Assembly (NCBI GenBank): GCA_016183805.1
Contig: JACPDX010000029.1
Span: 5,290-69,289, forward strand
Source of the DNA: Bacteroidota bacterium
GTDB lineage: Bacteria; Bacteroidota; Bacteroidia; Flavobacteriales_E; Vicingaceae
Length of the DNA: 64,000 nucleotides
Reading direction: 5' to 3'
The position numbers were made by a program, and so were the translations under genes. A model generated the notes under the pieces. It was not told where the DNA came from and did no database searches. It saw only the letters and a program-made list of their open reading frames with translations. Shown here in pieces: positions 1,852 through 20,638 of this stretch. Each line of letters starts with the position of its first letter. Position 1 is the stretch's first letter.

Positions 1852-2943
1852 TTATACTTGATGAAACACCTTTGTCAAGTTTTCCACCATTTTTTCTTCG
1901 GTAAAGTATTCATAGTAATACTGTTTAGAGTTGGCAGAGAATTGGTTTCTCAGTTCAGCATCGTTGATCAATACTTCCAATTTTTCAGCAATAATTTCAG
2001 GGCTTTCGGAAGGTACAATAAATCCATTTTTACCATCTAGTACCGATTCTATAATGGCTCCCTGGTCGGTAGCAATTATCGGTAAACCGTTAGCCATAGC
2101 CTCTACCATTACCCAAGGGTGACCTTCGGGCATTTTAGGGCAAAAAACAAAAACGGAAGCATTGGCAAACAATTGCATTTTTGCTGCTCCGCTTTGTGGT
2201 GGAAACAATTCTACGTTGGTGAGTTGATTTTCTTCTATAATAGCCAAACATTGTTGTTTAAAGGTTTCGTTATCCCAAGCTCCAGCCGCCTGAAAATTGA
2301 AATGAGTGATTCCTTTTTGTTTTAAAATAGCCAACGCTTTTAGCACATCGTCGAAACTTTTGGAAGGTAAAAAATTAGCTAAATACAACACGTTTAATGC
2401 GGTGGTGTTTTTGGTTGGCAATTCGTAATTTGCTCCGTTCGGTACTACAAAAATGTGTTCATCTGCAAAATAATCCTTGAACAAAGGTTTTAAATTATTG
2501 CCCAACACTATAACTCCCACACATTTTTTTAGGGTGGTTTTCACCAAACTTCTGGTGATGCCCGAAGCAGATTTTATCCAGTTGTTAAAATTGCTTCCCC
2601 GCAATTGAATCAGCACTTTTTTACCCATCAGTTTACCCACCCAAATAAATGGGGCATCTTTAAAAAAGCCCATGGTGGTTTGGCTAATCGGTACCAAAAT
2701 AAGTTGTGGTTGGTGTTGTTTTATTTTTTGAATAAATTCCACATAAATCCCCACGCTTCTTAACATTTTCGAAAAACTCCACCTACCCATGGTGGCCACA
2801 TCGGTGTTCATACGGGTATCTAAATGTATCAAGTTAAACTCGTTTTTAAGACCTGAGTTTAAGATAATTTGTGTGGCAATTGCCGGTCCGATTAATGGCG
2901 GAGGTAATTTCCCTAAAATTAATATGGTTGGTTTTTCGCTCAT
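1852..2943 (-). CDS. Glycosyltransferase, GT4 family (GT-B fold)
   Basis: A 363-residue transferase that would add a sugar from an activated donor during surface-glycan assembly at the inner face of the membrane. The N-terminal GKLPPPLIGPA loop and the C-terminal EGHPWVMVE motif (Glu273 and Glu281, the EX7E pair) are typical of GT4 retaining enzymes. It is the last gene of the minus-strand unit 9123->1852. Its ATG shares one base with the stop of the polymerase gene upstream, which suggests translational coupling. Donor and acceptor cannot be told from sequence. Confidence 0.88.
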   Translation of the reverse strand: MSEKPTILILGKLPPPLIGPAIATQIILNSGLKNEFNLIHLDTRMNTDVATMGRWSFSKMLRSVGIYVEFIQKIKQHQPQLILVPISQTTMGFFKDAPFIWVGKLMGKKVLIQLRGSNFNNWIKSASGITRSLVKTTLKKCVGVIVLGNNLKPLFKDYFADEHIFVVPNGANYELPTKNTTALNVLYLANFLPSKSFDDVLKALAILKQKGITHFNFQAAGAWDNETFKQQCLAIIEENQLTNVELFPPQSGAAKMQLFANASVFVFCPKMPEGHPWVMVEAMANGLPIIATDQGAIIESVLDGKNGFIVPSESPEIIAEKLEVLINDAELRNQFSANSKQYYYEYFTEEKMVENLTKVFHQV

Positions 2944-4190
2944 TATTGCTGCAATTGTTTTGGGAGTGCTACAAAGGCAAAAACAACCATTACGATATAC
3001 ATAAACGGAGGATAGTATGTTGGAGTGATGCTAATAGAATACAAGATTAATATACCTAAAGTTCCGTATGTCAAATACTTGGTAGAGCCTATTAATTTTT
3101 TTAATCGTTGGTAGAAAATAACCAATACTACTAAGTAATAAAACAAGCCAAAATAGCCCGATAAAAACAGGATACGGATAAAATCGTTGTGCGAACCCAC
3201 ACCAACAAAGCTATACGAATATTTTAGGGTACTAGGGTAACCAAAGAATTGAGCAAAAATGTTTTCGTTAGAAAAAATATCTACCATATGCGACCACCTA
3301 CCAACTCTACCATGCATTAAACGATCGGAATCTTGTTCTCCTTCGTAAACCTCAATATCGGTAGCTAACAAAGGAGCAACTTTTTCTTCAATAATGGGTT
3401 GAGCAAAAAAGTAAAAAATTAAAAATATCATGAACGACAACACCAATGCAGCTCCTTTATTTGACTTAAAATTGAATACCAAGAACAGCAACAACAACCC
3501 AAAAAATATGGTGTACGATGCAACGTGATGAATATTGATTAAGGTTAGTACACACAAAAAACCAATAATTAAAACGGTTCGTAATCGTTTGAACTGAGGC
3601 ACTTCTCTCTTTCTAGAAAAATAGAAATACGTTGCTATTAAGAAACAAAACGTAAGGTAAATTCCGTAACTCACTACATCACCAAAACTTCCCTGAATTC
3701 TATCCATTCCTCTACTTTCAACTAGTCTAATAGGATTTATTACCAGCTCATACAACAAGATAACTGCTACAAAAACCCCTGAATACAGAAAAGTAGTTAA
3801 AAAGCCATCTAAATCTTGTTTGTTTTGAATAAAGATTCGTGCAAAAAAGTAGAGGTAAATGGGAATGGAAAGCTTTAACAAGAACTCTAACGACTCCATG
3901 GTTAGCGGATCGCCCAAAATGACAAAAAAGATGCCTATAAAAATAAATACCGACCATATTTTAAAATACTTATCTAAATTGGTTTGTATAGGTTTTGGGT
4001 TTTTTATTAGGCTAATTATTACCAATACTGGAGTTAGTATTCCAACCCAATACAACGGCGATAGAAATGGAGAGATATTTTTAAGGAAAAATAAATTGTC
4101 GATTATCGGGCGCAACAAAACCAGAATAATGAACCATTTTAAGGTCCAATGTTTTGATTTAAGCCATATTTTCCAATCTCTAAATTTCAC
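2943..4190 (-). CDS. O-antigen polymerase/ligase-like membrane protein (Wzy/WaaL type)
   Basis: A 415-residue protein consisting mainly of hydrophobic segments (about 10-12 predicted membrane spans), with a hydrophilic loop around residues 275-330 that contains the motif HGRVGRWSHMVD and then GSHNDF. This layout is typical of the Wzy/WaaL superfamily, where the large periplasmic loop near the C-terminus joins glycan repeats or ligates them to a carrier. It overlaps the next glycosyltransferase gene by 11 nt on the upstream side and by 1 nt downstream. Polymerase is more likely than ligase because a flippase and a Wzc-like chain-length protein lie in the same locus; this is inference. Confidence 0.8.
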   Translation of the reverse strand: MKFRDWKIWLKSKHWTLKWFIILVLLRPIIDNLFFLKNISPFLSPLYWVGILTPVLVIISLIKNPKPIQTNLDKYFKIWSVFIFIGIFFVILGDPLTMESLEFLLKLSIPIYLYFFARIFIQNKQDLDGFLTTFLYSGVFVAVILLYELVINPIRLVESRGMDRIQGSFGDVVSYGIYLTFCFLIATYFYFSRKREVPQFKRLRTVLIIGFLCVLTLINIHHVASYTIFFGLLLLFLVFNFKSNKGAALVLSFMIFLIFYFFAQPIIEEKVAPLLATDIEVYEGEQDSDRLMHGRVGRWSHMVDIFSNENIFAQFFGYPSTLKYSYSFVGVGSHNDFIRILFLSGYFGLFYYLVVLVIFYQRLKKLIGSTKYLTYGTLGILILYSISITPTYYPPFMYIVMVVFAFVALPKQLQQ

Positions 4191-5319
4191 AAAAACTGAT
4201 AATTTGTTCGGCTATTTTGTTGTACGAAAATGTTTTGGCCAACTCCACTCTTTTTAATCTGTCGTTCTTCATTTTCTGCATACTTTCCAATAAAATATTT
4301 TCTGACAGATGTTTAAAATAAGATCCATTTTCGTTGTTCAAAATATGAATAATATTTTGTTGTTCAGGTAAAAGTAAAAATAAACCTGTTGCCAACGCTT
4401 CAAAAATGGAAATGGCAGCACGATTAAAAATAGCAGCATCGGCAGCATTGTAATATTTTCGGGTTTGTGCTGATGCTGAAAACGGTTTACAGATGATGTT
4501 ATTTTTACATTCCTTTTGAGCAATGTATGCTTTTAACGAGTCGCCATAAGCATCGTTTTGGAAACCAACAATCAGGTAATGGAATTGAGCTCCTTTTTTG
4601 TTCAACTCATCAACTAAATCAATCACTTTTTCCAACCCTTTTTCGGGAGCAACACGGGTGGCAGTAATCAATAAATTATCATTGTCAGACAATCCTAGTT
4701 CCTCTCGTTGTTGGTTTCGTTCCTGCTCGTCATAATAAAAAACCGACTCGTCAAAGCCCAAGGTTATTTCTCGACTTTTTGCTTTTAAAACAGCTAAATC
4801 TTTATTATTGACAAATTGAGCAATCACCTCAACCGTGGATGGAGTATAAGGTAACAACACATCGTTTGCCTGAATGGCTTTGTGATAAACCTGTTTCTTT
4901 AACGTGTGCAAAAGAATCACATCCTTCACTTTTTTGGCAAGACCTTTTGAAGTGTACGTTTCTTCATTATCGCCCATGGTGGTCATCAACTTAAATTTTC
5001 GATTTTTTAGTCGATACAGCGGCTCTGGAAACAATTTACTTGGACCAGTGCAAACCACCAAATCGGGATTAAATTTTTCTACTTCAGCAACCAAACCGTT
5101 TGATTTTACCATTTGACCCATGGAAAAACTCGCTTTTAAACGCACCATTTCATAAGGTGTATTTTCCGACAATTCACTGATTTTTTTAACGTAAGATGGA
5201 ACTACATCGGAGGTAATAACTTTTACTTCGTTACCCAATTTATGGAACGCATTGGCCAAATGGACTTCGATGTAGCCCATGGTTGGAAGAAAATGTCCGC
5301 ATACAATTGCAATTTTCAT
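4180..5319 (-). CDS. Glycosyltransferase, GT4-like
   Basis: A 379-residue GT-B type protein. The N-terminus (CGHFLPTMGYIEVHLANAF) has the acceptor-domain start typical of group 1 transferases. The middle has LLITATRVAPEKGLEKVIDLV, the common start of the donor domain. Only the second Glu of the usual EX7E motif is evident (IFEALATG); the first position lies in an AIFNRAAIS segment, so catalysis may differ from standard GT4 enzymes. It overlaps the asparagine-synthase gene by one base and the polymerase gene by 11 nt. Specificity is unknown. Confidence 0.82.
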   Translation of the reverse strand: MKIAIVCGHFLPTMGYIEVHLANAFHKLGNEVKVITSDVVPSYVKKISELSENTPYEMVRLKASFSMGQMVKSNGLVAEVEKFNPDLVVCTGPSKLFPEPLYRLKNRKFKLMTTMGDNEETYTSKGLAKKVKDVILLHTLKKQVYHKAIQANDVLLPYTPSTVEVIAQFVNNKDLAVLKAKSREITLGFDESVFYYDEQERNQQREELGLSDNDNLLITATRVAPEKGLEKVIDLVDELNKKGAQFHYLIVGFQNDAYGDSLKAYIAQKECKNNIICKPFSASAQTRKYYNAADAAIFNRAAISIFEALATGLFLLLPEQQNIIHILNNENGSYFKHLSENILLESMQKMKNDRLKRVELAKTFSYNKIAEQIISFCEI

Positions 5320-7244
5320 CAGGCCCTCAAATTAAAAGTGTTGTACCATTTTATTACCGAATACGCTCTCCAAAATTCACTTAAATGTGTGGCGTTGGAT
5401 AAGTCTTTGTCGCACAATTGTAACACGTAATTTTTGTTCATTATCGAAGGTAAATTACTTTGTTTCAACTCGGTGGTTAATGTTTTTATCAATTCGTTTT
5501 TCCAGTCTTGTTGAGGCGTTACAAATCCCTTTTTATCTTTTCGCCAAACCACCTTATCGTTAAGTTTGTCGTTGAGCATTTTTCGCAAGATGTACTTTGT
5601 CCAGCCACCGTGTATTTTTTGGTTGGTTGGCAAAGCTCTGATAAATTCCACCAAACGATGGTCTAAAAACGGAACGCGAGATTCGATTGAAAAAGCCATC
5701 GAATTTCGGTCTTCGTACCTCAACAACTCATACATTCCAAATTTAACGCTTAAGTTAACGTGTTCATCAAAGGTTTTTCCACCACGTTTAGGCACTAATA
5801 AATCGAGTTCCTTGATGTTTCCCGGATTGATAAAATTGTAGCTCAAACGCTCTTTGGCTCTTAATTGCTGCTGCAAACTTTCGGGCAAATAATAATACGC
5901 AGCTCGCAATACGGCATTTTTTATTTGTGGTGTAAAGTTTTGTTTGAGTTGGTAGTATTCTTTAAAAAATCGGTTGAATTTGAACGATTTCAACAATTCA
6001 ATCAGATGAATTCCTGCAAAGTTGTAATAACCACCTAAAATTTCATCGGCTCCTTGGCCGTCGAGCAATACTTTGATGTTGTTTTCTCCTACACATTTCA
6101 TCACCTCCCATTGTCCAAAAATGGAGGTTGAACCGATAGGTAAATCCTGAGCATAAATGAGTTTATCCATATCCGCCACCAAGGTTTTTGCTTCGGGATA
6201 GGTATAAATATCGGTAACGTTGGGTAAATCTTTTGCCACCAATTTAGCGTAATCCGATTCATCAATGGTTTTATTTTGGTAAGCCGCTGTAAACGTTTTT
6301 AATGAGGTATCGTTCAATTGTTTGCTGGCAGAATAAACTATAGCACTCGAATCTAAACCACCGCTTAAACAGGAACCAATTTCAACATCTGAACGCAAAT
6401 GCAATCCAATGGAATCGGTAAACAATTCTTCAAATTTTTGGGTGTTTGTTTTTATGTCATTGTTATTTACCTCCAACTTATCATCAATTGAAAAATAATT
6501 GGTTTTGGTCAATTGGTTGGTGTTTAAATCCAATTGATAATTGCAGCCCGGCTCAACATCTACAATGTGTTGAAACAAATTTTGATAAGGATTTGCAGTT
6601 GTTCCAAAAGCCAAATAGCTTCCTAAGTTTTTATTGGAAATGGATTTATCAACATCCTTTAATTTTAATAATGCTTTAATTTCGGAAGCAAAGGCAAAAT
6701 ACGTTTGGTTTTTAAAATAATACAACGGTTTTATTCCAAATCGGTCTCGCGAAAGCGTTAACGTATTTTCTTGTTTATCGAAAACCACAAAAGCCCACAT
6801 ACCCACAAAACGATTGACACAAATTGCCCCCCATACGGCAAAAGCTGTTAACACCACTTCAGTATCAGAATCCGATTTAAACGAATGTCCTTTTTGTTTT
6901 AATTCCTGACGGATTTCTTTAAAATTATACACTTCTCCATTAAAAACAATGGTATATCGTTGGTCGGGAGTTAACAAGGGCTGATGTCCTAATGCAGAAA
7001 CATCAATAATAGAAAGTCTGCGGTGAACCAAAGCTAAAGATGGAGTAAAATTTACTTCAGAAAGGTGTTTTAGGGATTTTAATTCTGCGATAGTATCATT
7101 TCCGCTACAATTTTCGAAATGCTCGTTATTCGACAGCATAAATCCTTCATCGTCTGGTCCACGATGTTTTAAGGTTTGAGACAAAGCAACTACTTCTGCT
7201 ACCTCAACTCCTTTTAGGTTATATATTCCTGCTATTCCGCACAT
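5319..7244 (-). CDS. asnB: Asparagine synthase (glutamine-hydrolysing) family amidotransferase
   Basis: A 641-residue two-domain enzyme. MCGIAGIYN at the N-terminus gives the Cys2 nucleophile of the class II glutaminase domain. SGGLDSS at 294-300 is the ATP-pyrophosphatase loop of the synthetase domain. Both active sites look intact and length matches AsnB. The gene sits inside a glycan operon between glycosyltransferases. AsnB paralogues in such loci are often thought to amidate sugar carboxylates such as uronic acids. Whether this copy makes free asparagine or modifies the glycan cannot be decided here. Confidence 0.9.
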   Translation of the reverse strand: MCGIAGIYNLKGVEVAEVVALSQTLKHRGPDDEGFMLSNNEHFENCSGNDTIAELKSLKHLSEVNFTPSLALVHRRLSIIDVSALGHQPLLTPDQRYTIVFNGEVYNFKEIRQELKQKGHSFKSDSDTEVVLTAFAVWGAICVNRFVGMWAFVVFDKQENTLTLSRDRFGIKPLYYFKNQTYFAFASEIKALLKLKDVDKSISNKNLGSYLAFGTTANPYQNLFQHIVDVEPGCNYQLDLNTNQLTKTNYFSIDDKLEVNNNDIKTNTQKFEELFTDSIGLHLRSDVEIGSCLSGGLDSSAIVYSASKQLNDTSLKTFTAAYQNKTIDESDYAKLVAKDLPNVTDIYTYPEAKTLVADMDKLIYAQDLPIGSTSIFGQWEVMKCVGENNIKVLLDGQGADEILGGYYNFAGIHLIELLKSFKFNRFFKEYYQLKQNFTPQIKNAVLRAAYYYLPESLQQQLRAKERLSYNFINPGNIKELDLLVPKRGGKTFDEHVNLSVKFGMYELLRYEDRNSMAFSIESRVPFLDHRLVEFIRALPTNQKIHGGWTKYILRKMLNDKLNDKVVWRKDKKGFVTPQQDWKNELIKTLTTELKQSNLPSIMNKNYVLQLCDKDLSNATHLSEFWRAYSVIKWYNTFNLRA

Positions 7245-7257
7245 TTCTTTACCTTTT

Positions 7258-7289
7258 AAACCTAACAGGTTTAAAAACCTGATAGATTT
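7258..7289. repeat. Short palindrome AAACCTAACAGGTTT, copy 1, with partial extension
   Basis: The 15-mer at 7258-7272 is identical to 9136-9150 and continues into a partial inverted copy (AAAAACCTGATAG). It occupies the 26-nt spacer between the asparagine-synthase gene and the GT4 gene and supplies the GT4 stop codon. Confidence 0.65.
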
Positions 7290-8404
7290 GAATAAATCGT
7301 TGTCAAATACTTTCCAAAACTATCCAATCCGAATCGTTTTTCTATCTGGTTATGAATCAATTCTCCATTATAATTACTTCTATTTTCAATCATATTCTCC
7401 ATGGCTTTTGCAATTTCATCAACACTATCGGGATTAACTAAAATACCATTTTTATCGTTGACAAACTCTTTGGGCGCGGTTTGATTGGTACAAATAACCG
7501 GCAAACCACAACTCAACGCCTCTGCGGCAACCAATCCAAAAGTTTCGTGCCGACTAGGAAAAACCATAAAACTGCTTTTGCCAAAAACTACTGCAATTTG
7601 AGCTTTGGTTAATGTTCCTTTTAAAATTACTTTATTGGTTAAATTGTTGGCTTTTACGTATTCTGTAATTGCATGGTATTCTTCCCCTGCTCCAATTATT
7701 GTTAAGGTATAATCGGGATGTTCATCAGCAATTTTATGAAATGCTTTAAGCGTCCTCAGTCCACCTTTAAATTCGTCTAACCGACTTACAAACACCATGT
7801 TTTTTGAATGAGTCGTATCAACGAGTTTATAAATGTTTGTATTTACAGGATTGTACGAAACTTCCACTTTTTCTTCGGGAATGCCCAGCTTTAATACCTC
7901 GTTTCTTTGGTGTTCGCTCACCACCAACACTTTTGCAGCACGGTTCAACACAAGTTTTGAAATACGGCTTTTAAACCAACTGTTTAAAATGCTCGAATAT
8001 GGTCCGGTATGCTCGGTAACCACAAAAGGCACCTTCAATTTTTTGCCAATTAAATATGCTAATGTTCCGTTTAAGATGGCCCCATGAGCGTGAATAACGG
8101 TTGTATCGGTATAATTTTTACCAAGTTCAACGCCTTTGATAAACCATTTGATGTACAAAAAAGGTTTTTGCCAACTGCTTACTTTTTTATCGGTTACGTT
8201 ATAACGTTTTACTTTAAATTGATTTCTGAAAACTTCGTCGGTAATGTCTTTTTTCTTGCCAACCAACCGCACATAGAGGGTTTGTGGATGTATTGATTCT
8301 ACACTTTTTAAATAATCTTCGATAAAAACCCCTTTCCAGTCGCCCTCAAATTCCGGAAAAAGTTCGGGTAAAACTAAAAGTCTGATATGTTTTTTGTCGT
8401 TCAA
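7271..8404 (-). CDS. Glycosyltransferase, GT4 family
   Basis: A 377-residue GT4 enzyme. HAHGAILNGTLAYLIGKKL is the acceptor-side motif, VSRLDEFKGGLRTLKAF begins the donor domain, and RHETFGLVAAEALSCGLP holds the EX7E pair (Glu287 and Glu295). It overlaps the upstream methyltransferase gene by 4 nt. Its last codons (LSGF and stop) lie in a short palindromic repeat also found upstream of the operon start at 9136-9150, so the C-terminus may have been altered by repeat insertion. Sugar specificity is unknown. Confidence 0.88.
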   Translation of the reverse strand: MNDKKHIRLLVLPELFPEFEGDWKGVFIEDYLKSVESIHPQTLYVRLVGKKKDITDEVFRNQFKVKRYNVTDKKVSSWQKPFLYIKWFIKGVELGKNYTDTTVIHAHGAILNGTLAYLIGKKLKVPFVVTEHTGPYSSILNSWFKSRISKLVLNRAAKVLVVSEHQRNEVLKLGIPEEKVEVSYNPVNTNIYKLVDTTHSKNMVFVSRLDEFKGGLRTLKAFHKIADEHPDYTLTIIGAGEEYHAITEYVKANNLTNKVILKGTLTKAQIAVVFGKSSFMVFPSRHETFGLVAAEALSCGLPVICTNQTAPKEFVNDKNGILVNPDSVDEIAKAMENMIENRSNYNGELIHNQIEKRFGLDSFGKYLTTIYSNLSGF

Positions 8405-9123
8405 TCTTTTTTAAAGAGATAAAGGTAATCACTTCCGAGCGAAGCATTTTTATTGTGAGCAACATTTCCAAACCATTTTCTGGTCAATTCATATTTTTTG
8501 TCGTTCGAAAACAACTTAGAGAACCCAATAAACGATTGGTTGTAACGAAACGTTTTTTGCAAGGTAAATCCTGCTTTTTTAAAGCTGTTTTCTACCTGGC
8601 TCGCAGGTACTTTGTTGAGTTTGTATTTGTCCTTTCCCATAAGTTGACGAACCCCCAAATACAAACGAATTAGTTTGCTGTAGAAATGACTGCTGTTGGT
8701 GTTTTGAATTACAATAACTCCACCTTTTTTTACTTTACTTTGAATAAAAGTTAAGAATTTATCCACATCATCAACATGAGCCAAAATACCCAAAGAAATG
8801 ATGATATCGAATGCTTCATCGTTAAAATTGGTATCGAAAATATCGCCACAAAAAAAAGAAACATTGTTTATCTTTTCTTGTGCTGCATAACCTTTTGCCA
8901 ATGCAATCATGTTTTCAGAAAAATCGACCAAGGTTATTTGGTTAAAGTTTTTTATATTTTTTAGGGAAATCATGCCATTCCCACAAGGCATATCTAGGGC
9001 GTTGTTGTAGTGGTTATCACCTATCAATTCGGCAACAATTTCCGTTCTTAATTTGATGTTGTAATCAAAGTGAAAATAGATTTCTGTTTTCTCAAAAAAT
9101 ATTTTTACTTCCTCTTTCTTCAT
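8401..9123 (-). CDS. Class I SAM-dependent methyltransferase
   Basis: A 240-residue methyltransferase. ALDMPCGNGMISL is SAM-binding motif I, TLVDFSENMI is motif II, and DIIISLGILAHVDD is the post-motif acidic segment. It is the first gene of the six-gene glycan unit 9123->1852, and a well-formed promoter lies 46-76 nt upstream of its start. A role in methylating a sugar or a glycan end is inferred from context. The C-terminal third, with several aromatic residues, resembles lipid or glycan methyltransferases but is not diagnostic. Confidence 0.82.
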   Translation of the reverse strand: MKKEEVKIFFEKTEIYFHFDYNIKLRTEIVAELIGDNHYNNALDMPCGNGMISLKNIKNFNQITLVDFSENMIALAKGYAAQEKINNVSFFCGDIFDTNFNDEAFDIIISLGILAHVDDVDKFLTFIQSKVKKGGVIVIQNTNSSHFYSKLIRLYLGVRQLMGKDKYKLNKVPASQVENSFKKAGFTLQKTFRYNQSFIGFSKLFSNDKKYELTRKWFGNVAHNKNASLGSDYLYLFKKD

Positions 9124-9135
9124 GTCTATCTTTAT

Positions 9136-9150
9136 AAACCTAACAGGTTT
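9136..9150. repeat. Short palindrome AAACCTAACAGGTTT, copy 2
   Basis: Arms AAACCT and AGGTTT are separated by AAC. An identical 15-mer lies at 7258-7272. The two copies bracket the GT4 and methyltransferase genes. This copy falls in the 5' leader of the glycan operon. Confidence 0.7.
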
Positions 9151-9168
9151 TGGTCGTTTTCAATCCTT

Positions 9169-9199
9169 CAAAGATAAAGTTCTTCCTGATTTTTACAAT
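9169..9199 (-). promoter_or_regulatory. Promoter of glycan operon 9123->1852
   Basis: On the minus strand TTG (9197-9199) is followed after exactly 19 nt by TATCTTTG (9169-9176), matching the Bacteroidota -33/-7 consensus TTG-N19-TAnnTTTG. The first gene starts 46 nt downstream. A 15-bp repeat (9136-9150) lies in the leader. Confidence 0.75.
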
Positions 9200-9236
9200 G
9201 TTTCAGCAAAGCATTTATCAACGAGTTGTTTTTAGT

Positions 9237-9244
9237 ACATTTGA
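9237..9244 (+). promoter_or_regulatory. Candidate -7 box for the 9306 gene
   Basis: TACATTTG matches TAnnTTTG, 61 nt before the ATG at 9306. No TTG at the expected spacing, so support is moderate. Confidence 0.4.
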
Positions 9245-9305
9245 GATAGATAATATGAATAAATGCAATGGTGTTTGTTTGGATATTGGCATTAAATAGA
9301 TATAT

Positions 9306-10010
9306 ATGTCTGAATTTAATAATCTTGATAAATTTTTATTTTATACAAATCAAATTCTTGAAAAATTTGAAGGCAAAAATTCGTATACAATATCCACTAA
9401 TTATTTAATTGAAAATTGTTTTAGAACTTATGATATATTAGTAACAATTGATACAATAAACAAGAGTTCTTTAAAACTCCAAGAACTTGAGCATCCAGTC
9501 GGAATTCTGCTAAGATCTGGATTGTATGATTTTATTTATTCACAATATATTATGAATACCAGTCTCGTGAAAAATCAACTTAATATTGAAAAACTCGAAA
9601 TTGAAGTTAGAAAATATATGAATGGACATTTCAATAATATCAATCCAGATTTAGAGTTAAATGACCAAGTAAAACATCTTGATAAGTTTAAAGATTTTGG
9701 CAGTAAAAAAGAATTTAAGCAACTTGGTATTTTAAAGCAAGGTAAAAGTTTTGCAATAGAGAAAAAACTAAACTACTTAGAATGTGCAATAAACAATTGG
9801 GAATGGTATTCTAAATACGAGCACTATGGTGTTTTCACAAATCATATGTATAATAAAAAGGATGATAATCGTCTTAGAATGAAAGAGTCAATACAATTAT
9901 TGTACTGCAATATTTACTTTTCCTTAATTTCAATTTGTGAATTAAATTCTGACTTACTTGCACTAAATGACATTGAAATATTAGGTGAAATATCGATAAA
10001 TAAAAACTAA
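9306..10010 (+). CDS. Uncharacterised protein, AT-rich, inside the glycan locus
   Basis: I do not recognise this 234-residue protein. It is soluble and mostly helical in character, without signal peptide or membrane span. Its C-terminal half contains WEWYSKYEHYG, vaguely like helical DUF5677-type proteins, but I cannot confirm this. It is the only plus-strand gene between two minus-strand glycan units. By eye it is richer in A/T (many aat, ata, aaa codons) than its neighbours, which suggests separate acquisition. It converges with the fusion gene, with 7 nt between stops. No partner gene is adjacent. Confidence 0.65.
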   Translation: MSEFNNLDKFLFYTNQILEKFEGKNSYTISTNYLIENCFRTYDILVTIDTINKSSLKLQELEHPVGILLRSGLYDFIYSQYIMNTSLVKNQLNIEKLEIEVRKYMNGHFNNINPDLELNDQVKHLDKFKDFGSKKEFKQLGILKQGKSFAIEKKLNYLECAINNWEWYSKYEHYGVFTNHMYNKKDDNRLRMKESIQLLYCNIYFSLISICELNSDLLALNDIEILGEISINKN

Positions 10011-10017
10011 TACATCT

Positions 10018-11694
10018 TTAAGACACAAACTCATCCTTAACATAATCAAAAACCGTGTATTCTCCATTGGAATGGAGGTGATGTGTTCCTTTGATGTTTT
10101 GGAAAAAATCAGGGGAAATTTCTTGAATAATTTCTTCCTCATAAACATCAGGAGTTAATTTCTTGACGTTTGAGATGACGGTAGATTTTCCATACATACA
10201 AAATCCGTGTTTTTGAGAAATTCTTGTTAGCTGGTTATCTTTGGCAGGAAGAGAACCTCCGTTTCTTGCTGAGTTTTTAAAAACGACTGGATTTTGAGCG
10301 TGTGCTTTCCATTCACCAGTTAAGGGATTATCGGTATAATAAATATCGAGTTTATTAAAATTGCTTTTGGTATCGGCATTTTTATTGGTAAACAACCACC
10401 AACGCTTATCGTATTCAAACACATTGGTATCGGTACAAGCAACATCAGCAATCAAATCCTTTTGATATTCCCATTTTAACGGAAAATCGACACATTTATA
10501 CAATCGGATGGAATTGGAATGGTACGATTCGGGGATCATGTACAATTGATTTTCGTACTTAAAAACAAACGGATAGGAAAGGTGGAAATCTTCTTCGACA
10601 ACCGTTCCTAAAATTCTATAAGCATTGTCGGCTAGTTCAATGGCTGTAATTACTCCTTTTTTGGTGTTGTAGTAATAATCCTCAACAAAAACGACTGTTT
10701 TATCGTTGAAATTAACCACAAACGGATCGGCAAAAAACCTGGATTTTGGGTTCGTAATTTTTATGGCGTCTCTAAATGGTTTTGTTCCAAATTCTCCTTT
10801 AAAAAATGCCACCGACCACCGACCAGTTCGATGAAAAATGCGTCTAGTTATTTTTTTTGAAATATCACCAACCAAGTAAGTTTGATAATTTACCAATTGC
10901 CAAAAATTGGGAATTTTAAATAATCTATCTGAAACAGGTATAGCGGTTTCGACATCAAAACTTCCTTGTTTTATTAGTCGCTGAATAACCAGCACCATCG
11001 AGGGATAACTCTCTTTAAACAAATGAAATTTATTTAGTTCGTAGAAAAACAACGTTGGAACTTCTCCACGGTAAACCACCTTTCCGGCATCCAACACCTC
11101 GCTTAAAATCTGAATAATAAATCCGGTTGCGGGCTTTTTGTGATAAACTTCCCAAAATCCCGGTGGTCCACCCCTATTCCAGCAGTTATCGCCATGATGG
11201 AAAGATAGCAAACCATGTTTTGCCACATTCAAAATTTCTCCTTTAAAAATTCCGGGGGTATTTATTCGTATCAGTAAATCAAGGTCTAAAGCCTTGATTT
11301 TTTCCAAATCATCAGCTTGGTATCGAACCACAAAACCCGATTTAGAATAATGTGCTTTTACCGAAAGTTTTTTGGTGATAAAGTCAAAAGCATTTACATC
11401 GAATGTCGCTGAATATTTTGCAAAATTCTTTTCCGTTTTTTTTAATAGAAAATTTTCAACTTTTGATTGCAGTTTAAACAACACCACTGAAATTGTTCGA
11501 AATAACCCGTTTTGCTTTATAAAGTGTAGTGTTTTAGCGCCAGTAGAATTGTTGTGCGAATAAATTCCTTCACTTAAAATTATCGAGAATTCAACATCGC
11601 ACGTATTATGCAACTCACGAATCAATTCATTGTTCAAATAATCCAACGAATTGTTGCTTATCAATAACCCTATTTTAAATTTCTCGCTTTGCAT
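10018..11694 (-). CDS. Formyltransferase-like / GIPC-transferase-like fusion protein
   Basis: A 558-residue two-part protein. Residues about 130-250 resemble the formyl-transferase N domain: LLSFHHGDNCWNRGGPPGFW corresponds to the catalytic His and RG-loop region of Fmt/ArnA-type enzymes. Residues about 290-540 resemble the N-terminal domain of glucosamine inositolphosphorylceramide transferase (KSRFFADPFVV, FVEDYYY, YPFVFKYENQLYMIPES), a five-bladed beta-propeller-like fold. It is the last gene of unit 13082->10018. It probably modifies or transfers an amino sugar in glycan synthesis; the reaction is not known. Confidence 0.7.
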   Translation of the reverse strand: MQSEKFKIGLLISNNSLDYLNNELIRELHNTCDVEFSIILSEGIYSHNNSTGAKTLHFIKQNGLFRTISVVLFKLQSKVENFLLKKTEKNFAKYSATFDVNAFDFITKKLSVKAHYSKSGFVVRYQADDLEKIKALDLDLLIRINTPGIFKGEILNVAKHGLLSFHHGDNCWNRGGPPGFWEVYHKKPATGFIIQILSEVLDAGKVVYRGEVPTLFFYELNKFHLFKESYPSMVLVIQRLIKQGSFDVETAIPVSDRLFKIPNFWQLVNYQTYLVGDISKKITRRIFHRTGRWSVAFFKGEFGTKPFRDAIKITNPKSRFFADPFVVNFNDKTVVFVEDYYYNTKKGVITAIELADNAYRILGTVVEEDFHLSYPFVFKYENQLYMIPESYHSNSIRLYKCVDFPLKWEYQKDLIADVACTDTNVFEYDKRWWLFTNKNADTKSNFNKLDIYYTDNPLTGEWKAHAQNPVVFKNSARNGGSLPAKDNQLTRISQKHGFCMYGKSTVISNVKKLTPDVYEEEIIQEISPDFFQNIKGTHHLHSNGEYTVFDYVKDEFVS

Positions 11695-11703: not shown

Positions 11704-12510
11704 TTATCCATTCCATTTTTTCATCAACCTTTTTTCGTTCCATTTCGACAAGCCAAAAATACTTATCATGCTTTCAAACAGATTGCCTACAAGTTTTTTA
11801 ATTCTGCATTTAGCAATTAACTTTTCCATATCAGCACTATAAGGCGAGTTATGCGATTTTAAAATGGCAAATCCCTCTTCGTACGATTTACAACTTAAAT
11901 TGCTGGCACCTCCAATACGAAATACAGCCAACGTTTTTGGCAAATAACTGAACTTAAATCCGGCTTTATAAACACGATAAATAAAATCGTAATCGGATGA
12001 CAATTTGTAGACTTCATTAAAACCTCCAACCGCATCGTAAACATGCTTTTTTATGAATGTTGAAGGATGAAAAATCGGCATCGTTTTTTCCATTAAACTG
12101 ATGTCAGGTTTTATATCTTTGTAAAACTCCTTACCATTGATGGTTCTGAGTTTGGTTAAATCGCCATAAACCACATCAGTATTTGTTTCATTAAAATGAC
12201 TTACAACTTGTTGTATGGTTTCGGGATAATAATAATCGTCGGCATTTAAAATGGCTATGATTTCGCCCGTTGCAAGTGCCAAACCTTTGTTCATGGCATT
12301 GTATATACCGGCATCTTTTTCAGAAATCAACCTGGCAATCTGCGATTGGTATCTTTTTACAATATCCAAAGTACCATCGGAAGAAGCTCCATCAATAATG
12401 AGGTATTCGATGTTGGAATACGTTTGATTTAAAACGCTTTTGATCGTTTGTTCAATAAACATTTCGCCATTATAAACTACTGTAATTATGGAAACGAGAG
12501 GATTACTCAT
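11704..12510 (-). CDS. Glycosyltransferase, GT2 family (GT-A fold)
   Basis: A 268-residue inverting-type transferase. VSIITVVYNGEMFIEQTIKS is the nucleotide-binding start, followed by QTYSNIEYLIIDGASSDGT. LNADDYYYP carries the DXD-type metal site. The later acidic region SSDYDFIYRVYKAG follows the WecA/WbbL-like layout. It overlaps the acyltransferase gene upstream by 4 nt and lies 9 nt before the fusion gene, forming a three-gene unit. Confidence 0.9.
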   Translation of the reverse strand: MSNPLVSIITVVYNGEMFIEQTIKSVLNQTYSNIEYLIIDGASSDGTLDIVKRYQSQIARLISEKDAGIYNAMNKGLALATGEIIAILNADDYYYPETIQQVVSHFNETNTDVVYGDLTKLRTINGKEFYKDIKPDISLMEKTMPIFHPSTFIKKHVYDAVGGFNEVYKLSSDYDFIYRVYKAGFKFSYLPKTLAVFRIGGASNLSCKSYEEGFAILKSHNSPYSADMEKLIAKCRIKKLVGNLFESMISIFGLSKWNEKRLMKKWNG

Positions 12511-13082
12511 TTGTTTCTAAACTTTAATAATCTCAATGGATTTCCTCCATAAATACCATAAGGTTCAATAATCGATTTTTTTAATACTAAGGAGTTTGCT
12601 CCAATAACTACTCCATTTGGTATGTTGCTGCCTTTCAAAACAACACTGTTAGCTCCTATCCATACATCTTCACCAATAAATACCGGCTCCGAATCTGATG
12701 CTTGTTGAGAAATAAGTTGGTGTTTTGTGGTTTTATGGTTAGTATCTCTAATACTTACGTTCTCGGCAATTAAACAATTTGAACCAATTTCAATTTTGGA
12801 ATTGGCTGCAATAGTAACATTACGAGTTAAATTAACGTGATTTCCAATTTTAAGAACAGCACCGTTAACAATTTCAAACGTAATGTATTCACCAATAGTG
12901 ACGTTATCCCCAAAAACTATATTTTTATTTGGAACAAGTCGAAAGCTAGGATATTTTATACACTTTAAACCTCTCCCAACTTCACAACCGTGAAGTAATA
13001 AATACAATTTAAGCCAACTACCTTTACACCGATAGATGAAGTTTCGACAAGCTTGTTCGATATAGACTATTAATTTTAGCAT
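12507..13082 (-). CDS. Hexapeptide-repeat acyltransferase (left-handed beta-helix)
   Basis: A 191-residue O-acetyltransferase-type protein. Hexapeptide repeats run through residues about 55-175 (VTIGEYITFEIVNGAVLKIG, then GEDVWIGANSVVLKG and NGVVIGANSLVL). NHKT at the loop carries a His expected to act as catalytic base. It probably acetylates a sugar hydroxyl or amine using acetyl-CoA. It is the first gene of a three-gene unit, with a -7 box TATCTTTG only 8 nt ahead of the ATG. Confidence 0.87.
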   Translation of the reverse strand: MLKLIVYIEQACRNFIYRCKGSWLKLYLLLHGCEVGRGLKCIKYPSFRLVPNKNIVFGDNVTIGEYITFEIVNGAVLKIGNHVNLTRNVTIAANSKIEIGSNCLIAENVSIRDTNHKTTKHQLISQQASDSEPVFIGEDVWIGANSVVLKGSNIPNGVVIGANSLVLKKSIIEPYGIYGGNPLRLLKFRNK

Positions 13083-13152: not shown

Positions 13153-14310
13153 TTATTTATTGAGTAAGTGATTAAGTTTACTCACAATTGCCGACCACAT
13201 AAAATGTTGATTTGTATACGTTTTTATCTCTTCACACTTATCCTGCAATATATTTTGATGGTCAATTAATTTCTGAATTTCAGCAGCATAGGCCTTAATA
13301 TCATTGACTTCTGTCCAAAAGCCAAAGTTAAAATTGTTGGATAAATCAGTAAATGCCGACATGCCGATTGTTCCGAGTATGTAGTTACCAAAGTACATGG
13401 CTTCAACAAAGGCAATCCCGAACGATTCAAACGGAGATGTTAAACAAAAAATCTTTGATCGGTCATAATACGAGTACAGTTCCTTTCTGTCGTTAACTTC
13501 TCCAACAAATTGAACTTGCTCTTTTAATGATGGATTATCCTGATAAAACTGGTCAATTTTAACCTGAAATGGTTGGTGAATTGGTCCAACAAACAACACC
13601 TTCCAATCTTTTAAATCCAATTTTTCAATTACTTTCAACAACATTTCATTGTTTTTTACATCTAATCCAATTCTGCCCACAGTCAACAAAACATTTTCTT
13701 TTTCGGTGTAATGTTTGATGTTCGGAAAATGTTTTTTGAGAAATACATCGTTCACTCCATTTGGCAAATAATGTATCTTATTTTTTAATTCAGGGTAATG
13801 TTGTTTAACTAGCTCTAATCCTATTTTGTTTTCTATACTTAACAGGTCAACATTTTTTAAAAATTTCTTTTCAAGATTTTTAAAGTAGATTTTTTTCAAT
13901 GACTTCGTAGTATGTTCAACTTTCCCTGATTTAAAATGTTCGTTATAAGCATCCATTTTAACATACAACTTACCTTTTGGATTTAGTTGTTTGTAAAGAT
14001 TCCCATACACAAAGGTGTCTTTTTTGAAATGGTATAAATTTAATACGTCTATTTCCAACGCATGTTCTTTGAGATAATTTATTACCGCCTTTTCCCAAAA
14101 ATGTTTGGTGCCAATATTTTCAATAAATACCATTTCAAGGCCACTAACTTCGCCTTGGGTATGGAAATAATCCGCGCTATTTTTATACGTTACAATTTCA
14201 GTTTGATAACCGTGTTGTTCGTTTAAAAAATGAGGAATTTGCCCTAAATCCTTAATCAAATGAGCGTTTTCTGTAATGGGAAATATGGTGGTGAATTTTT
14301 TAGTCATCAA
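13153..14310 (-). CDS. Glycosyltransferase, GT4 family
   Basis: A 385-residue GT-B enzyme. LPNGVNDVFL and LLTVGRIGLDVKNNEMLLKV are typical donor-domain motifs, and SPFESFGIAFVEAMYFGNY carries the EX7E pair. The N-terminus FPITENAHLIKDLGQIPHFL is like group 1 transferases. It overlaps the frameshifted gene upstream by 4 nt and is the last gene of unit 15739->13153. Specificity is unknown. Confidence 0.86.
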   Translation of the reverse strand: MMTKKFTTIFPITENAHLIKDLGQIPHFLNEQHGYQTEIVTYKNSADYFHTQGEVSGLEMVFIENIGTKHFWEKAVINYLKEHALEIDVLNLYHFKKDTFVYGNLYKQLNPKGKLYVKMDAYNEHFKSGKVEHTTKSLKKIYFKNLEKKFLKNVDLLSIENKIGLELVKQHYPELKNKIHYLPNGVNDVFLKKHFPNIKHYTEKENVLLTVGRIGLDVKNNEMLLKVIEKLDLKDWKVLFVGPIHQPFQVKIDQFYQDNPSLKEQVQFVGEVNDRKELYSYYDRSKIFCLTSPFESFGIAFVEAMYFGNYILGTIGMSAFTDLSNNFNFGFWTEVNDIKAYAAEIQKLIDHQNILQDKCEEIKTYTNQHFMWSAIVSKLNHLLNK

Positions 14311-14980
14311 TACTCAAATATCAATTCTTTTTTACCTGTTAATCTTAACCATTTCCGTTCAATATTAATCAGTTTCATCTTTATTGGGTGTCGATTTAAA
14401 TCCCCTCCGTGAGAACCGGATACGCCTTCAAAAATTGGATTTTTTTGAAACAAATCAACATTTTTCACATCTACTTTTTGTAATCGTTGATAAACAACAT
14501 GTTCTATAAAAACACCTTCTGCGTCATTTACTTCTTTGTAACCACCGGCTATATAGGTTGAATATTCTTTACATCCGCATACAAAAAAAGAAGTTATTGC
14601 TATTTTCTTTTTTTGATGTCTATCAATTATAAAACCTCTACTTTTCTGCTGTTTTAGTTCATCGAAATTTGTTACAATGTAACGACCGGAAACTTTAATA
14701 AATTCATCAAATTCATTGGCTAATTTACTCACCGTTTGGTCTAAAATTTCAAATTCCTGAAACCCTTTTCCTTTACTAAACTCATTGGACACGGGATATT
14801 GAATGAGTTTTACCTTCCCGGTTTGAAAAATAGCTTGAAAATCTTAATCGGCAAATGATAATGTTGTAAATAAAAATGGAGTGCTTTTAAATACTCTCCT
14901 TTCCTGATTTCCATATCATTTTGAGAAACCATAACACTGTTAGGCTTAATGGTAGCAGTTATGATTAAACATTGTTTCAT
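14307..14980 (-). pseudogene. Glycan-locus protein of unknown function, frameshifted
   Basis: An upstream frame starts with ATG at 14980 (MKQCLIITATIKPNS...) and stops at 14810 after 56 codons. A second frame, open from about 14843 to 14307, continues with DFQAIFQTGKVKLIQYP and then the long downstream part. The two halves join if one base is restored near 14844, so the gene is broken by a net one-base loss, perhaps within a larger deletion. An ATG at 14792 could start a 161-residue C-terminal remnant. The gene follows the methyltransferase stop by 3 nt and overlaps the GT4 by 4 nt, so it belongs to the glycan unit. I do not know its function. Confidence 0.72.
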
Positions 14981-16898: not shown

Positions 16899-18251
16899 TT
16901 ACTTATCCCAAATACCTTTGGCAGTTCCGTTAATTATTTTTAAATATTGAATTGGCTGAAAGATAGCACGTGGAAATACGCATATTACTGAAGCCAGAAT
17001 AACCCCTGCACTTCCCATTCCAAGATTTTTTCCGAAATAGATTGATAAAGGGATATTAACAATACTTACTAAAACCGAATGCCAAAGGCTCAATTTGATT
17101 TTGGAAATTCCGCTCAAAAAATTAGAAAAAACCATGGTGCTTGTACTCAATAATACCCAAAGGGCCATAATTGTCGACAATAAAAACGGTACCTGCACTT
17201 TATCGCCAACCCATAATGAATACGCGTAATTCGAAAAAGCCAGCATACCTACTAACCCTATAAAAATAAACCCCCATAACCTAAAAGTTTTCTTAGTTGC
17301 TTGTTTAATCCATGTAATATCTTTTTTTACATAGGCATCGGTATAAGCCGACCATAATGGAGTTGTGATGATTGTAAATACCATGGTAACAATACCAAAA
17401 TATTTGTATGCAATGTTGTATGGTGTCACATCCTCAGGCCCTGAAACCTGAGTGATGATAATGTTGTCTGTCATGAAAACCACTAAAGCCGCACCTTGCA
17501 TAATAAAGAACCTAATTCCCAGACCTGTTAAATCTTTCAAATACGAAAAATCAACAAATTTTAACGATGGTTTATATTTTTTGTACGATGTATTGTAATA
17601 CCAGACTCCTGAAATTAAAGGAACTAATAAATTGATTATGCTAAATGTAGCTCCCAAATACAACAGTGATCCATCAGTTGTTTTCATCAATAAAACTACT
17701 GCAATTAACGAAAGTAAACTGCTAAAGGTATTAATAACATTACTCATTGCCGGACGCTGATCGGCAATAAAAACAACATTTATTAATTTAAAAATGAACT
17801 GAAAACAGAATACCGTAAAAACGATAAATACCAACTTTTCCAACTCATTAATATCGATGGATGTATTTAATATTTTACCCCAATTTAAGAAGTGATTCAC
17901 CACAAAAAAAATTGCAAAAAGTGCTATTGAAATTATCGTGATGACGGCATAAGTAGTACTTATGTATGTTCTCGCTAAATCATATTTACCTTCAGCTTTG
18001 GCAATAGCAAATTTGTTTCGCAAACCATTACCTAATCCAATGTCAAAAAAATTAAACCAAGCAATAACTGACATCAATGTTATCCATACACCATACTTGG
18101 TTGGATTTAAATAATCAATGGTTAAAGGCACTAGTAAAAGACTTATTACCAAACTTATTCCTTTAAGAAAAAAAGAAGCTAAAATGTTTTTTTTTGCTTT
18201 TATTGAACGTTCGTGACCAGAAAGAAATTTATTAGCAAATCCGGTTATCAA
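16899..18251 (-). CDS. Oligosaccharide flippase (Wzx/MATE-like)
   Basis: A 450-residue membrane protein with about 12-14 predicted spans. The N-terminal LVPLTIDYLNPTKYGVWITL and IGLGNGLRNKFA are typical of the polysaccharide-transporter branch that flips undecaprenyl-linked repeats. The gene overlaps the stop of the Wzc-type gene by 4 nt, so the two are co-translated. With the polymerase at 2943-4190 and the Wzc-like protein upstream this supports a Wzx/Wzy-dependent pathway. Confidence 0.88.
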   Translation of the reverse strand: MITGFANKFLSGHERSIKAKKNILASFFLKGISLVISLLLVPLTIDYLNPTKYGVWITLMSVIAWFNFFDIGLGNGLRNKFAIAKAEGKYDLARTYISTTYAVITIISIALFAIFFVVNHFLNWGKILNTSIDINELEKLVFIVFTVFCFQFIFKLINVVFIADQRPAMSNVINTFSSLLSLIAVVLLMKTTDGSLLYLGATFSIINLLVPLISGVWYYNTSYKKYKPSLKFVDFSYLKDLTGLGIRFFIMQGAALVVFMTDNIIITQVSGPEDVTPYNIAYKYFGIVTMVFTIITTPLWSAYTDAYVKKDITWIKQATKKTFRLWGFIFIGLVGMLAFSNYAYSLWVGDKVQVPFLLSTIMALWVLLSTSTMVFSNFLSGISKIKLSLWHSVLVSIVNIPLSIYFGKNLGMGSAGVILASVICVFPRAIFQPIQYLKIINGTAKGIWDK

Positions 18252-20638
18252 GACTTTTTGTTTTTTCGTTTTAACAAACCTGTTTTTTGTTCTTCTTCAT
18301 AATAGCCGTAACCATATCCGTAGCCATAACCATAGCCATACGAAGAGCCTTTGGTGTTTACAGCATTAAACAATACGGATGCATTTCTTAGTTTTCCTTC
18401 CCTATACAGTTCGCCAACATGAGAAAGATGGTCTTTTTTTGTTACGTTTTGACGAACCACAAAGATTAAAGCATCACTATATTTTTCTAAAAGTAAGGCA
18501 TCGGTAACCAGTCCAATAGGTGGTGAATCGATAACAACAGTATCATATTTACTTTTTAATAACTCAATTAATTCATCCATTTTTGAATTCATTATTAGTT
18601 CAGAAGGATTTGGGGGTATTGGTCCGGACGGAATGATATCTAGATTTTCAACACCCGATTTCTGAATAATAGCATCAATATCTTCAGCACCAATTAGGAA
18701 CGAACTGATACCTTTGTCATTAGAAATATTAAAGTCTCCAACGATTTTTGGTTTTCTTAAATCCATTCCTAAAAGAACGGTTTTATTTCCGGAAGCAGCA
18801 ATTATAGAAGATAAATTCATAGCAGTATAGGTTTTCCCTTCCGACCCTACTGAAGAAGTAATTAAAATTACTTTTTGTTCTTTACCTGCGGCGAAATATT
18901 TTAAATTGGTTCTTACCGACCTGAACGATTCTGCAATTAATGATTTTGGTTTTTCTGATACGATGAGTGCATAACCTTCTTTACTTAACCCAACTATGCC
19001 TAAAATAGGCATTTTAGTTAATTTTTCGATGGTTTTTTTATCTCTAACAGTATCATTTAATTGATCTTTGATAAATATTAACCCTGTTGGAAGTAAAAGG
19101 GATAAAAGCAAGGCTAATGAATAGCTTTTGTTTGGTAAAGGTCTGATAGGATAAGGAGTTGATCGAGCTTCTTCGATAATTCGATTATCGGATACCGAAG
19201 CTGCTAATGCTAATGATGTTTCAGCTTCTTTTTGCAACAGATACAAATACAAACTTTCTTTTACCCTATATTCCCGTTCTATACCAACTAATTCCCGTTC
19301 AGTTTTTGGTATTGTACTTAGTTCTCTCTCTAATAATCCTAAAGTTCTTGTAGATTCTCTTTTCGATGAAATTAAACCATCTTTAATACTGTTGATATTT
19401 TGAAGTAATTTTTTTCTGGTATATTCTATTTGTTGGTTAATCAAATTTAAAGATGGATTTTCGCCCTTTGTTTCATTACCAATTTTTTGCTTTTTTATTT
19501 CTAAATCTGTTATCTGTCCAATCAAATTTATTAGTAAAGGGTCGTTTATACCTAATGACGATGGTGCAATATCTGCAAGACTTTTATTGTCGTTTACATA
19601 ACCATTTAAGTAGTCGATAAAACTTAATTGCAAGTTGATATTTGACAAGTCGTGGTCGGCAGATTGAACATTTTCTAAAACCATTTGTGATTTTGCACTA
19701 ACATCAGTAATGCCTTTTTTTACTTTAAAATCTTGTCTTGCTGTTTCAATCTGTTTTAATTCTGTTGAAATAGATTGCAATTGATTGTTAATGAATAAGG
19801 CTGTGCTACTGGCTATTTTATTTTTTTCGAGAATATCGTTTTCCAGATAAACTTTAACAAGTGTATTCAAAAAATCTATTCCTCTTTGTGGTATTTCATC
19901 TTCAATACTTAGTACAATTATCGATGAACTTTTCCCAGGCAGCTCTATAGTAAGTTTTGCCCTATAAAATTCTACCGTATTAGTAAGGTTATTAAATTTT
20001 ACTCTAAATTTTCTTTTTTCGTAAGATTGGTTATTAAATGAGGTGGCATCAAAATGAGTTCTTTTGTTTACAGTAAAAACACCAACCGGGAGATAAACTT
20101 TTTCTCCAAACAAATGTTTATTCCGATAACTGTCATTGGTTTGTTCTATTTGATAATCTAACTCATACGAGTTTTCATCTAATATATTGATGTTAAAGAA
20201 ATTGCTATAAGCATAAAAGTTAAGTGAATCATAATTAATGATAAATGGCGATTCGGTGTACAATTGGCTCTTTTTTACATTACCAACCAAATAATATAAA
20301 ACATCTAACTCTAAATGTTGAAGTGCCTTTTTTAGGAGGTTACGCGATTTTAATATTTCAATCTCATTTTCAATATTTTTCTTGGCATTGTAAACATCTA
20401 AATCTCTCAACAGTTCTTGAGTACCAATACTTGAGCTATTATCATCTTTAATTAAAATTTTAGCAGAAACATTATAAATAGGTTTCACATACCAATTGTA
20501 AAAATATGCACAACTAAACCCAATAATCAATGCTATCACATAGATGTACCAATAACGTAAATAACTAAAAAGAAACTCTTTTAGATTAAAATTATCGTGT
20601 TCATTTTCAATATTATCTGTTGGCGTATTCTCTTGCAT
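18248..20638 (-). CDS. Wzc-type polysaccharide co-polymerase with BY-kinase domain
   Basis: A 796-residue protein. Membrane spans near residues 32-55 and 510-530 flank a large periplasmic part with coiled-coil character (Wzz domain first, GNVR-like region later). The cytoplasmic kinase has Walker A SSVGSEGKT (Lys602), Walker A' LLGMDLRKP and Walker B TVVIDSPPIG. The tail is an alternating Gly-Tyr run followed by YYEEE, a tyrosine cluster for autophosphorylation. It controls chain length and export of the surface glycan. A Wza partner is not in the window. Confidence 0.92.
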   Translation of the reverse strand: MQENTPTDNIENEHDNFNLKEFLFSYLRYWYIYVIALIIGFSCAYFYNWYVKPIYNVSAKILIKDDNSSSIGTQELLRDLDVYNAKKNIENEIEILKSRNLLKKALQHLELDVLYYLVGNVKKSQLYTESPFIINYDSLNFYAYSNFFNINILDENSYELDYQIEQTNDSYRNKHLFGEKVYLPVGVFTVNKRTHFDATSFNNQSYEKRKFRVKFNNLTNTVEFYRAKLTIELPGKSSSIIVLSIEDEIPQRGIDFLNTLVKVYLENDILEKNKIASSTALFINNQLQSISTELKQIETARQDFKVKKGITDVSAKSQMVLENVQSADHDLSNINLQLSFIDYLNGYVNDNKSLADIAPSSLGINDPLLINLIGQITDLEIKKQKIGNETKGENPSLNLINQQIEYTRKKLLQNINSIKDGLISSKRESTRTLGLLERELSTIPKTERELVGIEREYRVKESLYLYLLQKEAETSLALAASVSDNRIIEEARSTPYPIRPLPNKSYSLALLLSLLLPTGLIFIKDQLNDTVRDKKTIEKLTKMPILGIVGLSKEGYALIVSEKPKSLIAESFRSVRTNLKYFAAGKEQKVILITSSVGSEGKTYTAMNLSSIIAASGNKTVLLGMDLRKPKIVGDFNISNDKGISSFLIGAEDIDAIIQKSGVENLDIIPSGPIPPNPSELIMNSKMDELIELLKSKYDTVVIDSPPIGLVTDALLLEKYSDALIFVVRQNVTKKDHLSHVGELYREGKLRNASVLFNAVNTKGSSYGYGYGYGYGYGYYEEEQKTGLLKRKNKKS

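Follow-up and report, generated by a model that had tools for sequence, protein, structure and literature searches.

Within a flippase/Wzc-type polysaccharide (glycan assembly) locus, the window (the whole stretch of DNA analysed, 64,000 nucleotides) encodes a fusion protein in which a domain with the formyltransferase fold, carrying Ser at the place of the canonical active-site Asn, is joined to a five-bladed propeller of the GINT1_N family. Our leading explanation, still a tentative one, is that this is a cytosolic enzyme of surface-polysaccharide assembly, in which the propeller would hold a sugar for modification by the variant formyl-THF-type domain.

The fusion gene and its locus

A fusion of two domains had been proposed here by a sequence-only reading, and it is real: one ORF of 558 aa fills positions 10018 to 11694 of the minus strand exactly. 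A genome-wide scan with an Algoriphagus query returned 351 stretches, 319 of them encoding a relative, and in all of the best 80 of these 319, which were kept, both halves lie in a single open frame (80/80). This rules out a sequencing fusion, a frameshift or an assembly artefact. No signal peptide was visible by eye in the protein. The fusion is the sole GINT1_N match in its source genome, where two Formyl_trans_N matches were also found, neither of them the fusion.

The neighbouring genes are listed in Table 1. The protein of 415 aa encoded between two GT4 genes is guessed to be a polymerase. A BLAST search of all 64 kb with three DegT seeds detected no DegT aminotransferase. An ORF of 234 aa (9306-10010), flanked by the methyltransferase and the fusion, lies on the plus strand of a mostly minus-strand locus; it falls in a low-GC stretch (8001-10000, GC 0.306), and neither Pfam (E ≤ 1) nor NCBIfam (E ≤ 0.01) gave a match for it. 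Another ORF of the locus (161 aa, 14307-14792, minus strand) could not be given a convincing family.

Table 1 Features of the fusion gene and of the surrounding locus (positions in the window)
Feature	Position	Strand	Basis or remark
Fusion protein, formyltransferase-like N-half and GINT1_N five-bladed propeller C-half	10018..11694	-	558 aa; ORF, Pfam, structure model, fold searches
N-domain, residues 1-263, formyltransferase fold	10906..11694	-	Separate model, pLDDT 87; VIA-align
N-domain signature, residues 164-182, S164-F-H166-H167-G-D-N...R-G-G-P-P-G-F-W-E182	11149..11205	-	Alignments; Ser164 at the canonical Asn position
Asp202 of the LDAG motif, conserved formyltransferase Asp	11089..11091	-	Alignments; 81/81
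Linker helix, residues 264-286	10837..10905	-	DSSP on model
C-domain, residues 287-558, GINT1_N / five-bladed propeller	10021..10836	-	PF24793 at residues 316-521; VIA-align
Asp323, in the propeller's conserved ADP(F) motif	10726..10728	-	81/81; 20/20 motif-free fusions
Asp422, conserved propeller residue	10429..10431	-	81/81; 19/19 readable motif-free fusions
Arg477, conserved propeller residue	10264..10266	-	81/81; 19/19 readable motif-free fusions
Two GT4 genes	1852-2943 and 4180-5319	-	
Protein of 415 aa between two GT4 genes	2943-4190	-	Without Pfam match
AsnB-type glutamine amidotransferase	5319..7244	-	
GT4-type glycosyltransferase	7271..8404	-	Pfam
SAM methyltransferase	8401..9123	-	Pfam
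GT2 glycosyltransferase, next gene upstream, ending 9 bases before the fusion start codon	11704..12510	-	Pfam, ORF, sequence
Hexapeptide acyltransferase of the polysaccharide locus	12507..13082	-	Pfam
GT4-type glycosyltransferase	13153..14310	-	Pfam
Flippase	16899-18251	-	
Wzz/Wzc-type chain-length protein	18248-20638	-	

Folds of the two halves

The whole-protein model, built from the 81-row alignment of the window protein with its 80 relatives, reached a pLDDT of 90.7 and a pTM of 0.89, and this high pTM suggests that the two predicted domains pack against each other in a defined way. Among the Foldseek matches of the whole model were methionyl-tRNA formyltransferase, ArnA and the hydrolase domain of 10-formyl-THF dehydrogenase, together with propellers of GH117, GH159, GH43 and mannoside phosphorylases. 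The matches in a viral fold library were kelch and GH32-like propellers as well as formyltransferases of giant viruses, a likeness at the level of fold and nothing more. Structure prediction and fold search had been named in the sequence-only reading as its check, and both halves found their match.

The N-domain, modelled alone, was aligned by VIA-align to the structure 3q0i over 191 residues (Z 18.5, rmsd 2.6), and it has the formyltransferase fold by this match. In sequence searches the window protein had no match to Pfam Formyl_trans_N (PF00551) at E ≤ 1, a family that was matched at E ≤ 0.01 by 27 of the 81 family members (best E 1e-7). The NCBIfam formyltransferase model scored the N-half at E 7e-4, far below the cut-off of the model, and the window protein stayed below the cut-off of every NCBIfam model, while residues 126-213 matched the PDB chain 4iqf (methionyl-tRNA formyltransferase) at E 2.4e-6. 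The relation of the N-half to formyltransferases is thus weak by sequence and clear by the fold of the model.

The resemblance of the C-half to the N-terminal domain of plant GINT1 (glucosamine inositolphosphorylceramide transferase 1) had been attributed to short motifs. The resemblance holds, and it is actually a full-strength match, since Pfam GINT1_N (PF24793) is found at residues 316-521 with E 5.1e-43 and a score of 147.7 bits, the cut-off being 27. Residues 303-552 were aligned to the beta-1,2-mannobiose phosphorylase 5b0q, which we take to be a GH130 enzyme, with Z 21.5 and rmsd 2.9 over 240 residues (VIA-align), and 33 of the 81 fusions also match Pfam Glyco_hydro_43 (PF04616). The transferase implied by the GINT1 label did not survive. 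In plant GINT1 the transferase is a separate C-terminal GT64 glycosyltransferase domain, and within the 558 aa of the fusion we found no GT64 domain and no other Pfam family at E ≤ 1, which excludes a true GINT1.

GINT1_N scored over its cut-off in 62 of 395 genomes of the phylum, mostly in ORFs of about 300-390 aa (the lack of an N-half was judged by ORF length). At 11 loci with such stand-alone propellers, one of them an ORF of 435 aa (L238), 21 of the 65 same-strand neighbours were Glycos_transf_1 and four were Glycos_transf_2; the 65 include one further GINT1_N copy.

A serine at the asparagine position

The sequence-only reading had recognised a formyltransferase active-site segment in the N-half and had pointed to the Asn-His-Asp triad. 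His166 and Asp202 are present and the Asn is not, its position being taken by Ser164, so that the assignment stands for the fold and fails for this member of the triad. In the 80 loci plus the window, Ser164, His167, Trp181, Glu182 and Asp202 were found in 81/81 and His166 in 80/81, counts that are biased toward the motif because the scan patterns contained SFHHG or RGGP. As judged from the alignments, Ser-x-His...Asp is the signature of the fusion family. The strict N-motif of the 81 rows looks like a predicted working site and not like decay, and this conservation rules out that the N-domain is decayed throughout the family.

More weight is therefore given to a second sample, collected free of the motif filter, of 20 fusions from whole-protein searches, the fragments L010, L019 and L020 having been dropped. 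The set Ser-His-Asp was complete in 13/20 and Asn was seen in 0/20. In the other seven (L021, L023, L025, L051, L052, L053 and L055) at least one of Ser, His and Asp was gone or the site was unrecognisable, the latter in L025 and L055, whose N-part is at most a putative homologue. The propeller residues D323, E338, H371 and E389 were kept in 20/20 of these fusions, and D422, R477 and Q494 in the 19/19 that were readable, including those without a complete N-site. D323 and D422 may correspond to the catalytic acids of the GH43/GH130 clan, and R477, placed by eye, presumably lies near the GH43 general acid.

The Asn was present in 32/32 Fmt/PurN-type control loci from the same taxonomic family, which are the fetched portion of a listing that also includes four fusions; the regular expression used needs H..LLP. 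It was also present in 19/19 further control loci (L211-L229, with the eight genes L011-L018 among them), six of which (L213-L218) carry one closely similar gene and are not independent. Formyltransferase-like proteins without the Asn do exist, with Val in Cupriavidus HypX and Gly in L146 from Sulfitobacter, two counter-examples that make the Asn less than decisive. The loop after the His, G-x-N-x-x-N-R-G, is shared with L219 and L220, which are of the Asn type and whose loci contain a DegT gene.

Genomic neighbourhood of the relatives

Neighbours were counted at 79 of the 80 loci with a simple longest-ORF caller, which missed the fusion in L094. Relatives of the window genes occurred near the fusions at 26/79 (GT2), 25/79 (GT4) and 15/79 (AsnB) loci, taken without a background control; genes of these three types are common in such loci. 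On these figures a universal partner gene is rejected. In the Pfam tallies, restricted to same-strand genes and made after dropping 13 Cyclobacteriaceae loci (L058-L061, L063-L066 and L068-L072), the adjacent neighbours (n=89) comprised 29 Glycos_transf_1, five Asn_synthase and five UDP-glucose/GDP-mannose dehydrogenase genes, and the second neighbours (n=81) 18 Glycos_transf_1 and 10 Glycos_transf_2. On two Halorussus plasmids the fusion also lies among glycosyltransferases.

DegT was detected, with the same three seeds, in 3/80 fusion loci vs 6/19 of the Asn-type control loci (Fisher p 0.0014, computed as if the loci were independent, although they are only partly so). The control loci were shorter (median 15.0 vs 17.5 kb), a bias against this difference. 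The six loci L213-L218, with their one closely similar gene, had no DegT, so that DegT cannot be taken as a reliable sign that an enzyme is active.

Distribution and phylogeny

Record titles and the tree place fusions in Bacteroidota, Planctomycetota, Gemmatimonadota, Chloroflexota, Acidobacteriota, Verrucomicrobia, Actinomycetota, Campylobacterota, Myxococcota, Thermodesulfobacteriota, Pseudomonadota and candidate phyla, many of the records being metagenome bins in which single phylum assignments may be wrong. In the archaea the fusion was found on the two Halorussus plasmids; for the plasmid relatives, 7 of 79 plasmid records were fetched. Single-protein pattern scans of genome and viral contigs, with patterns specific to the window sequence, gave no relative, and a scan of viral contigs with the family alignment gave none either. 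One match, propeller only, was obtained in a phage collection.

The tree was made from 56 propellers (41 rows with Ser-His-Asp, six with degenerate N-domains and nine stand-alone), using 33 of the 80 loci. L024 and L051 were left out; in both the fusion is read in two frames with the break within the propeller half, either an assembly error or a broken gene. All nine stand-alone rows, L054 included, form one group (100/100). The window copy falls in a clade of five rows (98/97), the other four having degenerate N-domains, and this clade is sister to L021 plus L023 (100/98). The Ser-His-Asp motif of the window copy is intact despite this grouping. It deviates at 5 of the 29 N-domain positions that are conserved in at least 90% of the other 80, the most of the 81 rows, and at 7 of 40 conserved C-domain positions, second to L134 (eight). 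Since the C-domain deviates too, part of the deviation of the N-domain is plain distance. The N-domain of the window copy and its nearest relatives may be losing its function.

Stand-alone relatives on haloarchaeal plasmids (L137-L145), mostly annotated as "formyltransferase family protein", have Ser for Asn in 9/9 loci. L144 adjoins a polysaccharide deacetylase, L137 is near AsnB and an oxidoreductase, and the others are in unrelated surroundings, with L138, L139, L140 and L143 outside glycan genes. In Haladaptatus (L054) the two halves, of the Ser type, are adjacent separate genes (8809-9891 and 9911-10765). The Sulfitobacter protein L146 (3812-4789), annotated as methionyl-tRNA formyltransferase, has a DegT aminotransferase on one side and a PIG-L deacetylase on the other, and an enzyme acting on sugars is the likelier identity. 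In the rhizobial fusions L052 and L053 the formyltransferase motif is ruined and the propeller residues are intact; L053, on a Rhizobium plasmid, directly follows NRPS/PKS genes and adjoins a phosphopantetheinyl transferase gene.

Possible function of the fusion

In the explanation that we tentatively prefer, the GINT1_N propeller would recognise a sugar, either as nucleotide-sugar or as lipid-linked repeat unit. The N-domain would be a formyl-THF-type one-carbon transferase with the variant site Ser164/His166/Asp202, beside which His167 and Asp169 are conserved, and it would modify the propeller-bound sugar; the simplest such change would be formylation at an amino or hydroxyl group. In this scheme the binding of folate, formyl as the group transferred, the acceptor and a single substrate shared by both domains are inferred. 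Coupling of a one-carbon-transfer domain to a sugar-binding domain is reasonable because both folds hold and the gene lies among glycosyltransferases, and N-formylation by the fusion would be plausible. The sequence-only reading had gone further in coupling amino-sugar N-formylation to recognition or transfer of the sugar. What remains of it is the one-carbon-type domain with a sugar-binding domain in a glycosyltransferase locus; against the N-formylation are the Asn (0/20), the absence of DegT from 77/80 loci and the window, and the N-site lost or unrecognisable in 7/20. These same three points also count against our preferred explanation, together with the non-glycan settings of some stand-alone proteins, the grouping of the window copy with degenerate rows and its deviations at conserved positions. 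In favour of that explanation are the two folds, the conserved Ser-type motif (complete in 13/20 motif-free fusions), the Ser of the stand-alone haloarchaeal relatives, the two adjacent genes of Haladaptatus, the His loop shared with L219 and L220, the HypX precedent and the many glycosyltransferase neighbours.

Close behind comes the possibility that the propeller is the real enzyme, glycan-trimming, phosphorylase-like or sugar-transferring and of the GH43/GH130 kind, with an N-domain that is binding or regulatory and catalytic in some lineages or never. The propeller residues kept in all motif-free fusions, also in the seven without a proper N-site, point in this direction, as do the frequency of the propeller without an N-half and the presence of such copies in glycan loci, and the best solved folds are mannoside phosphorylases, to which the Glyco_hydro_43 matches can be added. 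This is opposed by the N-motif, which is as strictly kept as that of the propeller in the 81-member set, something that a scaffold would not need.

It seems unlikely that the fusion is an ordinary N-formyltransferase of amino sugars to which a sugar-binding domain has been added, with Ser replacing Asn and an amine supplied by another part of the genome or by de-N-acetylation. The N-domain does share its fold with ArnA, WbkC and the methionyl-tRNA enzyme, the Gly-type L146 and the Ser-type L144 adjoin a DegT aminotransferase and a polysaccharide deacetylase, respectively, and 13/19 Asn-type control loci likewise have no DegT within reach; however, both the shortage of DegT relative to the controls and the Asn present in every control locus speak against it. 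Transfer of formyl by the N-domain to a hydroxyl, phosphate or thiol instead of an amine, of the sort proposed for HypX on CoA, would fit the few aminotransferases near the fusions and a HypX that also has no Asn and appears in the fold list, but it is less likely again, as the extra Asp of HypX, six residues past its His, has no counterpart (Asn173 is aligned there by eye) and O-formylated polysaccharides are, to our knowledge, rare.

A wider and doubtful proposition is that of an unnamed family, ancient or widely exchanged among bacteria and haloarchaea, in which the Ser-His-Asp folate-type domain and the GINT1_N propeller would perform an undescribed glycan modification, with a formyl or other one-carbon group at a non-amino position or with trimming and formylation coupled, and from whose propeller half the N-domain of plant GINT1 would descend.

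Comparison with known systems

With Fmt, the ArnA N-domain, WbkC and the enzymes of the VioF/QdtF type the fusion shares the N-domain fold, the catalytic His and Asp and the R-G after the His loop. Unlike them it has Ser for Asn and the conserved His167, Asp169 and W181-E182, it is joined to a propeller and it rarely has an aminotransferase nearby. With plant GINT1 it has the PF24793 family in common, but it belongs to prokaryotic glycan loci and not to sphingolipid glycosylation. We know of no test of the role of the GINT1_N domain in plants, and the fusion provides a prokaryotic handle on it, being a single polypeptide that allows mutation of the propeller independently of the N-half. The fold of the five-bladed propellers of GH130, GH43, GH62 and GH117 is also shared, with Z of about 19-21.5 over about 230-245 residues in the best rows, whereas identity is about 10%, the fusion has its own set of conserved residues (D323, E338, H371, E389, D422, R477 and Q494) and, without visible signal peptide, it is found in biosynthetic loci.

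HypX likewise has a formyl-THF-type N-domain that has no canonical Asn and is fused to a second domain; its structure 6j1e was aligned to our N-domain over 169 residues with Z 16.5 and rmsd 2.4 (VIA-align). A modified His/Asp/Asp triad has been proposed for HypX (PMC6802093), which makes it a precedent: a two-domain fusion for which formyl transfer is proposed although its triad is altered. The second domain of HypX is of the enoyl-CoA hydratase type and its function is hydrogenase maturation, while the C-domain of the fusion is a propeller. If the Ser-type domain is active, the scope of formyl-THF enzymes without the canonical Asn would be wider.

In the literature searched, which fell short of most subscription journals, no publication was found that mentions PF24793, or that ties GINT1 to a formyltransferase or a beta-propeller, or a formyltransferase to five-bladed propellers and polysaccharide, and none was found there on the active sites of sugar N-formyltransferases. 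Four plasmid annotations label the fusion proteins as "hypothetical protein", and two folds can now be assigned to proteins annotated in this way.
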